Assembly: GCA_020161295.1 (NCBI GenBank)
Contig: JAIUOA010000006.1
Coordinates: forward strand, 62,001-126,000
Direction of reading: 5' to 3'
Length of the DNA stretch: 64,000 bases
From: Bacillota bacterium
GTDB lineage: Bacteria; Bacillota; Clostridia; Peptostreptococcales; Acidaminobacteraceae
The notes beneath the pieces are model-generated. The model was not told the DNA's origin and searched no databases. It was given only the letters and a program-made list of their open reading frames with translations. This document shows positions 50,499 through 53,529 of this stretch, one piece after another (position 1 is the first letter of the stretch; each line of letters begins with the position of its first letter). The translations under genes were made by a program, and so were the position numbers.

Positions 50499-52472
50499 AT
50501 GAAAATCAGCGATTACCCAGTTAGCGAAAAAAATCTGGGTGCAAATTACACTCAGGCGCGAACAATTTTCAACGTTTGGGCACCCACTCAAAAGGACGTT
50601 AAGGTCGCGCTATATGATTCCGCAAAAGCGCCATTCAGAACCCTTCACCCGATGTTGAAGGGCTCTGACGGGGTGTTTTCCACGACCATAGAAGGCGACT
50701 TGCACGGATTATTTTACACCTACATCGTGGATGGTCAAACTGAGGTCACGGATCCATACAGCCTTTCCACATCCGCAAACAGCGCGCGAAGCGCCGTAGT
50801 CGATCTCGAGAAGACCCATCCTGAAAACTGGCAAAATCACCACCGTCCAAACGGCATTAAGGGCTGTGATGCCATCCTTTATGAGGTTCATGTAGGAGAT
50901 TTTTCAGCGCATAAGACCAGTGGAATGACCCATAAGGGAAAATTTTTAGCGTTTACTGAAAACGGTACCAGTTATACGAGCGTGTCTACAGGCATCGATC
51001 ACCTCGTGGAATTGGGCGTTACCCATGTCCACTTGATGCCTGTCTATGATTTCTTAACTGTGGATGAAGAGCTTGTCGAAGACAAGAACTATAATTGGGG
51101 CTATGATCCTGAGCATTATAATGCACCAGAAGGGAGTTATGCCTCCGATCCAAACGATCCTGTTTGCAGAATCCGCGAGCTAAAAGCTGCCATCATGGCG
51201 CTTCACGAAAAGGGGCTAAAGGTCGTACTCGATGTGGTTTACAACCACACATTCCGTACGGAGCATTCAAACTTCAACGTACTCGTTCCTAAATACTATC
51301 ACCGCACCACTGAAACAGGCGAATTCTCAAACGGCTCAGGCTGTGGAAACGAATTTGCCAGCGAGACCCCCATGGGCCGCAGGTTTATCGTGGATTCCTT
51401 AGTTTACTGGGCAAAAGAGTATAAGGTCGATGGATTCCGCTTCGATCTCATGGCACTGATCGACCTGGAAACCATCACGATTGCTAAAAAAGCGCTAAGG
51501 GCTATCGATCCAGAAATCATGATTTACGGCGAGCCATGGATGGGCGGACTGTCCACACTCCCCGATAAAATGAGAGTCTATAAGGGTTCCCAGTGTGACC
51601 AGCAGTTTTCTTTATTCAACGACGACTTCAGGGATGCCATCAAGGGCGATAACGACGGTTCCGGTAAAGGCTTTATCCACGGGAATCGCGACATGAAACA
51701 CCAGATGCACGTCGGTCTTGCAGGCTCCATCCCATATGATGAGAAAACCATCGGCTTCACCACCCACCCTTGCGAATCCATTAATTACTTCAACTCTCAT
51801 GACAACCTCATCCTCGAGGATAAACTCAGGCTAACCACACCAGAGGCCTCGTACGATGAACTCCTTAAGCAAAGTAAGCTTGCGTTCAACTTGCTCTTTA
51901 TGGCTCAGGGTGTTCCCTTCTTCCATGCTGGCAATGAATTTCTGCGCAACAAAAAAGGGCATCACAACACCTATAATGCACCATTCAGCATCAATGCCAT
52001 CGACTGGAGCAACAAGGTCAAGCACGAAGCCTTTTTCAAATATGTAAAGGATGTCATAAAGCTCAGAAAGACTTACAAATGCTTTAGAATGAACGAACCG
52101 GAAATGATCAAGGAACGTATCCACTTCATCGAAGACGATGAGTTCAAGGAAGCCTTTAAGGATGGCATCGTCATGGTCATCAAGCAAAATGAAGTCCCTG
52201 GCTTTGATGGCTTGCTCATCGCCCATAATCCTGGGCACGAGCCAATGCTGCTTTCCATCGATCAGTTAAAGGAAGCCATCATTGAGCTATACACCACGAA
52301 GAAAATGGAAATTCCAAATGATAAGCTCTTAGTGGAGCTCATCTTTGACGAGCGTGGTTTACTGGATTCACCCGAGCGCATCGACGCCACCACACACCAC
52401 CTGGTACGTGTGGACCCGGTCAGCTCAAGCGTCTATAAAATCGGGCGTTTAAATGGCCTTTCTAAAAAATAA
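50499..52472 (+). CDS. pulA: Type I pullulanase
   Basis: A 657-residue GH13_14 debranching enzyme cleaving alpha-1,6 links. The hallmark 'YNWGYDPEHYNAPEGSY' is present, with the nucleophile region 'VDGFRFDLMALID', 'MIYGEPW' (acid/base) and 'NSHDNLILEDKL'. A CBM48-like N-terminal domain is also seen. No signal peptide, so it acts on cytosolic glycogen, consistent with its place as last gene of glgB-C-D-A-P-pulA. Confidence 0.95.
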   Translation: MKISDYPVSEKNLGANYTQARTIFNVWAPTQKDVKVALYDSAKAPFRTLHPMLKGSDGVFSTTIEGDLHGLFYTYIVDGQTEVTDPYSLSTSANSARSAVVDLEKTHPENWQNHHRPNGIKGCDAILYEVHVGDFSAHKTSGMTHKGKFLAFTENGTSYTSVSTGIDHLVELGVTHVHLMPVYDFLTVDEELVEDKNYNWGYDPEHYNAPEGSYASDPNDPVCRIRELKAAIMALHEKGLKVVLDVVYNHTFRTEHSNFNVLVPKYYHRTTETGEFSNGSGCGNEFASETPMGRRFIVDSLVYWAKEYKVDGFRFDLMALIDLETITIAKKALRAIDPEIMIYGEPWMGGLSTLPDKMRVYKGSQCDQQFSLFNDDFRDAIKGDNDGSGKGFIHGNRDMKHQMHVGLAGSIPYDEKTIGFTTHPCESINYFNSHDNLILEDKLRLTTPEASYDELLKQSKLAFNLLFMAQGVPFFHAGNEFLRNKKGHHNTYNAPFSINAIDWSNKVKHEAFFKYVKDVIKLRKTYKCFRMNEPEMIKERIHFIEDDEFKEAFKDGIVMVIKQNEVPGFDGLLIAHNPGHEPMLLSIDQLKEAIIELYTTKKMEIPNDKLLVELIFDERGLLDSPERIDATTHHLVRVDPVSSSVYKIGRLNGLSKK

Positions 52473-52490
52473 ATAAAGCATCATGAAAAA

Positions 52491-52528
52491 AGGAGCGTCG
52501 CTTAAACAAGCGCGCTCCTCATTTTATT
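52491..52528. terminator. Bidirectional terminator of pulA and the selenoprotein gene
   Basis: AGGAGCG / CGCTCCT arms with an inner CGCTT-loop-AAGCG extension, and T-runs on both strands. Confidence 0.88.
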
Positions 52529-52546: not shown

Positions 52547-52834
52547 TTAGCACTTTGAACCGCCACGGACAGGTGTCACAGAATAACTATAGCCATTCCA
52601 TTTGACTTCAATCTGACCGAACGTCTCTTCAAGATACTTTTCCATGATAAACGGAATACCGTCGATATTTTCTACGATATCATCCTCTTTTACTTGATCT
52701 AGACCTAGACCAAAACTTGGGCCACCTCAGCCCATGCCTGCGACATATACCCTCAGATTTTGGGGTTTGTCAGGCTGTTTTTCAAGAACGCCGCGGATGC
52801 GATCCGTCGTGTCCTTATCTACGATAAAAATCAT
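52547..52834 (-). CDS. HesB/IscA-like selenoprotein (in-frame UGA = Sec36)
   Basis: A 95-residue protein when the TGA at 52727-52729 is read as selenocysteine. Upstream the frame starts at ATG 52834 (GGAGGG upstream); after TGA it continues as GGPSFGLGLDQV and ends 'GGSKC' at a TAA. The adjacent paralogue has Cys at exactly this place (residue 36 in both, GMGU-GGPSFGLGLD against GMGC-SGPSFGLGLD), so Sec replaces a conserved cysteine of the HesB/IscA fold. Downstream of the TGA stands a bSECIS-like hairpin. HesB-like selenoproteins are a known bacterial family; the biochemical role is unknown. An own -10 (TATAAT, minus, 52866-52871) precedes it. Confidence 0.9.
52693..52714 (-). promoter_or_regulatory. 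bSECIS element (selenocysteine insertion hairpin)
   Basis: On the minus strand, a 9-bp stem (two G-U pairs) with a GGTC apical loop begins 12 nt after the UGA; the loop begins 22 nt after it. This fits the bSECIS rules: G among the first loop bases, a loop of 3-14 nt and 16-37 nt between UGA and loop. Confidence 0.8.
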
Positions 52835-52865
52835 AATTCGCCCTCCATTGTTAGCATACATTGTC

Positions 52866-52871
52866 ATTATA
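52866..52871 (-). promoter_or_regulatory. -10 of the selenoprotein gene
   Basis: TATAAT on the minus strand, 32 bases upstream of ATG 52834, with a weak -35 (TGTTTC) 17 bases further. It implies a transcript separate from the Cys paralogue. Confidence 0.45.
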
Positions 52872-52929
52872 CCCGAAGAAAATAGTCCGAAACAGTGACT
52901 AAGACGCAAAAGTAAAGAAAAACGTCATG

Positions 52930-52959
52930 TAAAAAGCGCCTTTCACATGGAAAAGCGCT
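52930..52959 (-). terminator. Terminator of the Cys-form HesB-like gene
   Basis: AGCGC-TTTTC / GAAAG-GCGCT stem with a CATGT loop, then a T-run on the minus strand, between the two HesB-like genes. Confidence 0.8.
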
Positions 52960-52985
52960 TCGTGTCTTCGTGCTAATTCAGTTCA

Positions 52986-53297
52986 TTAACCGCAGCTTGA
53001 GCATGAACCACAAGCTGATGGTTGAACGTTGACTGGTTGTACGGAATAACCATTGCCAACCCACTCAACTTTAATTTCGCCAACTGTATCAAACACGGAT
53101 TGCTCAACGACGAAATTTACGCCATTGATGACTTCAACGTGATCATTATCGTTAACGTTATCGAGACCAAGTCCAAAGCTAGGGCCACTGCAACCCATTC
53201 CTGCGATGAAAACTCTAATATTTTGTGGTTTGTCAGCTTGTGCAGATAAAACCTCGCCGATTTTTGCACAAGTTTCTTCATTAGTAGCAATATACAT
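52986..53297 (-). CDS. HesB/IscA-like protein, cysteine form
   Basis: A 103-residue paralogue of the selenoprotein downstream. Residues 1-90 share the HesB/IscA-like fold, with the conserved cysteine (C36) in 'AGMGCSGPSFGLGLD'. The C-terminal tail 'ACGSCSSCG' adds three more cysteines, probably for Fe-S binding. The start ATG 53297 has GGAGGTG upstream; the longer ORF start at 53342 is not supported. The family is related to A-type Fe-S carriers, but this subgroup's job is unknown. Confidence 0.88.
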   Translation of the reverse strand: MYIATNEETCAKIGEVLSAQADKPQNIRVFIAGMGCSGPSFGLGLDNVNDNDHVEVINGVNFVVEQSVFDTVGEIKVEWVGNGYSVQPVNVQPSACGSCSSCG

Positions 53298-53529
53298 AGA
53301 TACACCTCCGTAGATTCTAACGATGTCCGTGCCTTGACACATTATTCACCATTACTTGCTTTGATTATAATATAATTCCTACTAAATTAGTATAGTTAAT
53401 TTGAAATTTTAATGAATCTTTACAATTTATTTTCAATTTTTGTTGCTTAATTTTGACGTTGCCCACTTTGGACGCATAGACAAATACGCCCTATTTATGA
53501 TAGATTATAGAAAACCCCTGGAGGACTCC

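Follow-up and report, generated by a model that had tools for sequence, protein, structure and literature searches.

The window, that is, the whole stretch of 64,000 nucleotides analysed here, carries two adjacent HesB-like genes on its minus strand. The downstream gene (52547..52834, minus strand) is predicted to encode a HesB-like selenoprotein of 95 amino acids with an A-type carrier fold. As stated in the initial annotation, its frame is interrupted only by a TGA at codon 36 (52727..52729, minus strand), and it is open only if this UGA is read as selenocysteine (Sec), U36 being the sole recoded codon. Read in this way, the protein is MIFIVDKDTTDRIRGVLEKQPDKPQNLRVYVAGMGUGGPSFGLGLDQ...GGSKC, which contains at the first ligand position (GMGUGGPSFG) the UxGP motif of HesB-like selenoproteins (PMC13188914) and ends with a single cysteine (Cys95), without a Cys-rich tail. 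The upstream gene (52986..53297, minus strand) encodes a paralogous A-type-carrier-like protein of 103 amino acids. The annotation had assigned to it a cysteine at residue 36 and the tail ACGSCSSCG, and both were found: the Cys36 codon (TGC; 53190..53192, minus strand) falls opposite the neighbour's UGA in the alignment, and the tail (C96GSC99SSC102G) is of the CxxCxxC type. The two proteins share 51% identity. An alternative, longer start of the Cys gene lies at 53342; the shorter start was favoured because a GGAGG site lies immediately 5' of 53297. The convergent neighbour of the Sec gene is an alpha-amylase/CBM48 (pullulanase-like) gene (50499-52472, plus strand), which forms the end of a glycogen gene cluster (45.4-52.5 kb); in the lineage of the window, almost every locus with the pair has retained this gene.

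The machinery for Sec insertion, which had been proposed as a check, is complete in the genome of the window (3.08 Mb, 41 contigs). The genes selD-selA-selB are located on contig C29 (63.6-67.9 kb), and the tRNA-Sec gene (selC) lies at 73 kb of the same contig, 5 kb from them; all four matches were above their cut-offs. The selD gene (L021:1495-2427(+), contig C29) has an in-frame TGA of its own (KSAGUGAKIG), indicating that the selenophosphate synthetase is probably itself a selenoprotein here. In the alignment, 13 further genomes with the pair have a UGA at this codon too. In the region 3' of the UGA, the substitutions counted among seven genomes (21 genome pairs) were 180, 112, and 456 at codon positions 1, 2, and 3, respectively, and this excess at third positions shows that the region downstream of the UGA is translated. 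Coding constraint was observed on both sides of the UGA, with the Cys homologue aligned at the site itself.

A bSECIS-like hairpin (52693..52714, minus strand) consists of 9 pairs, two of which are G-U, with a loop GGUC starting 22 nt past the UGA. Its minimum free energy had a z-score of -2.96 for a 91-nt region and -1.62 for a tighter region of 76 nt; against codon-level shuffles, the hairpin of the window Sec gene was not significant (z 0.40). Folding energy alone is therefore weak as proof for this gene, and it is codon conservation that carries the SECIS argument. The stem-loop codons of the Sec copies stay GGT/GGC CTA GGT YTA in the 14 pair-bearing genomes, and codon +7 is CTA in 14 of 14 Sec copies versus 0 of 14 Cys copies, although CTA is rare among the other Leu codons of the same Sec genes (4 of 51). 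The mean z-score of the hairpin region against synonymous-codon shuffles was -1.43 for tailed Sec copies, -1.04 for other Sec copies, and +0.15 for Cys copies. On this codon evidence, the SECIS stem fixes the rare Leu codon CTA at +7 of the Sec copies, and the 9-bp hairpin described in the initial annotation is real. Judged from its sequence and that of its homologues, the UGA36 gene is a true HesB-like selenoprotein gene, a member of what had been called, in agreement with the literature, an established bacterial family (PMC1794560, PMC13188914, PMC11097638).

The best NCBIfam matches of both proteins were NF038090 (IscA_HesB_Se) and TIGR01911 (HesB_rel_seleno), with scores under the curated TIGR01911/NF038090 cut-offs (44.5 and 61.2 versus 85 bits; 36.2 and 44.4 versus 66.35). 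No NCBIfam A-type model reached its curated cut-off with either protein, and Pfam Fe-S_biosyn was absent among the Pfam matches reported for the two. The predicted models of the proteins (pLDDT 86 and 91) matched SufA and IscA first (2d2a, Z 12.2; 1r94, Z 11.5), with a Foldseek E value of 5e-6 against IscA, and both proteins are thus predicted to share the IscA/SufA fold. The Cys-rich tail was modelled with low confidence, and therefore no claim is made on ligand geometry. The ligand pattern is C36 plus CxxCxxC in the Cys copy and U36 plus one cysteine in the Sec copy, the canonical pattern being one Cys on the N-terminal side plus a C-terminal CxC. A search of the genome with TIGR00049 found no canonical A-type carrier and returned HesB-like genes only, all below the cut-off; other HesB-like genes aside, the Cys copy is the closest match to an A-type carrier in its genome. 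A third HesB-like gene (L003:1459-1746(+); contig C21 of the same genome, 105.6 kb) has a UGA at the same place and ends with GSRC, and a glutaredoxin gene (PF00462) follows 38 nt 3' of it. The relatives also have this Sec-only subfamily, and the third copy and the copies of relatives likewise scored below the curated NCBIfam cut-offs.

The initial annotation had suggested that homologues be compared for recurrence of Sec/Cys pairs, and such pairs do recur. The 41 family genomes that were compared include carriers of an adjacent pair in seven genera (g1, g2, g14, g16, g18, g19, and g21); Fusibacter bizertensis and F. tunisiensis are among the carriers with a species name. In six of these genera the order is an upstream Cys copy that has the CxxCxxC tail and a downstream Sec copy that lacks it; in the g2 pair the Sec copy comes first and both copies have the tail. 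In genome G062 each of the two copies is located at the end of a different contig, which is what a break in the assembly between them would produce. In another family (f3), tandem pairs were found in five genomes, with the Sec copy first in genus g92 and the Cys copy first in g86. Unlinked Sec and Cys copies occur in g7, in family f9, and in other f3 genomes, and g11 has two copies on separate contigs, one of them at a contig edge. In all 31 two-copy genomes examined, a count that takes in tailed and tailless forms, one copy is the Sec form and the other the Cys form. Among them, G166 additionally has a second Sec copy, and the two (L154:533-856(+) and L153:565-888(-)), about 107 kb apart, encode identical proteins, which suggests recent copying. 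Genome G018 contains, besides its other copies, a highly divergent, Cys-only member of the tailless subfamily (L097:923-1204(+)). A scan of genome contigs returned close relatives only.

The trees rest on about 105 columns, and many of their forks have weak support. In them, the Cys copies from the lineage of the window form one group, which excludes the tailless Sec copies of g1, g16, g18, and g21; these are divided among several groups. This grouping across genera indicates one old duplication, and a recent local duplication was rejected. For the divergent Sec partners of G016 and G021 the position in the trees is uncertain, and the G016 partner also lacks the C-terminal Cys. Well-supported forks identify the pairs of g2, g7, g11, f9, and f3-g92 as separate events, so that, according to the trees, there were at least five further, independent duplications with a Sec and a Cys copy, of which two gave tandem pairs (one in another family). 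The Cys copies of g2 and g7 have long branches and lie next to or within their respective Sec groups, a placement that fits a switch from Sec to Cys once the gene had duplicated. Among the relatives with a single copy, the nearest (g8 and g9) have the Sec form, already with the GGTCTAGGTYTAGAC stem, and the pair of the window is therefore also likely to have started from Sec. Identity among orthologues is 84.5% for the Cys copies compared to 59.3% for the Sec copies, and the Cys copy is the more conserved one in 91 of 91 genome pairs.

The annotation had further proposed that each gene has its own transcript, which is backed in the window by a terminator-like hairpin between the genes and by TATAAT-like boxes. 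The intergenic hairpin (52933..52961, minus strand; -15.6 kcal/mol, z -4.6) is strong and is followed by a T-run, and another terminator-like hairpin lies 3' of the Sec gene (52490..52520, minus strand; -19.8 kcal/mol, z -3.7). The putative -10 box of the Sec gene, TATAAT-like GGGTATAAT (52866..52871, minus strand), was identified by eye, without support from a promoter tool; most of the orthologous Sec genes also have it on their 5' side. For the Cys gene, a TATAAT -10 box lies at 53364..53369 (minus strand). The gene spacing permits co-transcription in G032 (gap of 30 nt), G021 (74 nt), and G016 (overlap). The Sec promoters within g1 (G000, G001, and G002) have in common a motif GTCTTAGTCACTGTT upstream of CGGGTATAAT (window 52875-52905, minus strand).

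Overlapping the Cys-gene promoter is a conserved element, CTATACTAATTTAGTAGGAATT (53374..53395, minus strand), that is related to an element of the iscR promoter. The promoter stretch ...AACTATACTAATTTASTMGGAATTRTATTATAAT is conserved across five genera, and the core of the element is unique in its own genome at up to 3 mismatches. The isc operon of this genome is iscR-iscS-iscU, its iscR promoter reads TTGACGCATTTAATCGGATATATTATAAT, and IscR is the one Rrf2 protein above the cut-off. A pattern covering the Cys and iscR promoters gave 21 matches in the 41 genomes of the family, compared to 1 with the reversed control; 13 matches lie before the Cys gene, 6 before iscR-iscS, and 2 elsewhere. The pattern was built from both promoters of the window's own genome, where the joint match arises by construction, and only its specificity and its recurrence in relatives count as tests. 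The element is absent before the G016 Cys copy and in the g2 pair, and it was not found before the Sec gene of the window. In the f3 genus g86 (L151, L152, and L153), a TATTGATTATTTA-like stretch precedes the -10 region of the Sec gene as well as that of the Cys gene; the two genes may thus share their control there, unlike those of the window. The type 1 IscR consensus of E. coli (PMC3899308) matched the Cys-promoter site at 17 of 25 positions, the same as about 100 windows in the 64 kb. It scored higher in the Sec promoter region (19 of 25, at 52869-52893), a match that is not evident upstream of the Sec genes of G001 and G002, and it was rejected as proof of IscR control because it is non-discriminating. 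Given that the pattern derives from the two promoters themselves and that the E. coli consensus does not discriminate, control of the Cys-gene promoter by IscR is a reading that we infer and lean towards slightly.

The explanation considered best is that the two genes, which encode HesB-like proteins with the predicted IscA/SufA fold, became a tandem pair through an old duplication. The upstream Cys copy, with Cys36, the CxxCxxC tail and strong constraint, would be the A-type Fe-S carrier of the bacterium, taking clusters from IscU and handing them on, and its promoter would be controlled by the only Rrf2/IscR protein of the genome. That the Cys copy is a working Fe-S carrier is the most likely reading, given its strong constraint, its iscR-like promoter and its being the closest A-type match in the genome; the predicted fold and the promoter point to cluster carriage rather than sensing. 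The Sec copy would be made through Sec insertion at UGA36, would have lost the Cys-rich tail save one C-terminal Cys, and would evolve faster behind its own promoter. It may have a narrower, selenium-dependent task, with a selenolate at the cluster-ligand position, either in cluster transfer or in thiol/selenol redox work, but this exact assignment is a guess and more doubtful than the rest. Overall, we give slightly better than even chances to an Fe-S-regulated A-type carrier (the Cys copy) with a separately expressed, specialised partner (the Sec copy). The specialisation suggested in the initial annotation has its signs in the different C-terminal tails, the different promoters and the very different conservation of the two forms; its further ideas, joint action of the two proteins, redox sensing and a ratio set by selenium supply, are conjectural. 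Extended to several clostridial lineages, the idea would be that heterotypic duplication was selected for, one A-type-carrier copy staying Sec and the other turning Cys, and both kept for different jobs, the Cys form under Fe-S feedback control and the Sec form for selenium-dependent cluster or redox chemistry beyond the reach of Cys; in this general form it is a tentative and rather unlikely proposal.

The main rival is a selenium switch, in which the two forms are interchangeable isoforms and the Cys form substitutes when selenium is short, as with methanogenesis enzymes of Methanococcus maripaludis. Such switches do exist in methanogens (PMC11097638, PMC2933860), each two-copy genome examined in the subfamily has one Sec and one Cys form, and the g2 and f3 pairs keep the same tail on both forms. 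In the lineage of the window, however, the tails differ, the Cys form is far more conserved, which is not expected of a stand-in, and the Cys promoter resembles that of iscR and not a selenium-controlled one. A switch is therefore more in keeping with the g2 and f3 pairs than with the pair of the window, and as a general explanation we regard it as unlikely. Less probable still is that the pairs are snapshots of a neutral Sec-to-Cys replacement after duplication, with the Sec copy being lost. The faster evolution of the Sec copy and the divergence of the G016 and G021 partners, the former lacking its C-terminal Cys, could be read in this way, and two Sec-to-Cys conversions are known in the HesB-like family (Zhang et al. 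2006, PMC1794560, Table 1). Against turnover, the UGA, the SECIS codons and the coding constraint are kept in the Sec copies across g1, g16, g18, and g21, and pairs arose repeatedly instead of decaying to one copy. That the UGA is a true stop followed by a relic frame is highly improbable and was rejected on the conservation of codon +7 and the substitution pattern downstream, the complete Sec machinery and the shared position of the UGA in 13 other genomes also speaking against it.

The reading of the pair as a regulated carrier with a specialised Sec partner bears on the function of HesB-like selenoproteins and on why prokaryotes keep Sec beside Cys homologues. The family itself was known; what goes beyond the initial annotation is the comparative picture of the pairs. 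One cell with both forms, separated long ago, with different tails and promoters and of repeated origin, amounts to a natural side-by-side test, and the pair carriers F. bizertensis and F. tunisiensis are culturable, so that the question is open to experiment. According to a 2026 review, Sec-to-Cys substitution is rare and concerns mainly FdhA and SelD (PMC13188914); the HesB-like family adds several cases beyond these. The literature searched contained neither a description of Sec/Cys pairs that are in tandem or arose repeatedly nor a selenoprotein paper naming Fusibacter; for the pairs, this absence is weak evidence, since most subscription journals were outside the search.

Compared to known systems, the pair resembles the HesB-like family (TIGR01911/NF038090) in having Sec at the first cluster-ligand Cys, a small single domain and a bSECIS within the coding region, but it differs in its scores below the curated cut-offs and in the tandem Sec/Cys arrangement with divergent tails. 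With IscA, SufA, and ErpA it shares the predicted fold, the position of the first ligand Cys and, in the Cys copy, C-terminal Cys ligands, although these are arranged as CxxCxxC, or reduced to one Cys in the Sec copy, instead of CxC. In Clostridium perfringens, a Firmicute described as lacking suf, cysteine limitation induces the HesB-like A-type carrier gene cpe0664 along with iscR-iscS-iscU (PMC2940859). This gene, apparently part of the isc regulon, is a precedent for the control proposed for the Cys gene; it is a single gene, and no Sec partner is described there (PMC2940859). The Sec/Cys isoform pairs of M. maripaludis are similar in that one organism makes both versions of a protein, but they serve methanogenesis and are switched by selenium through the regulator HrsM, a kind of control that is considered unlikely for the pair of the window.
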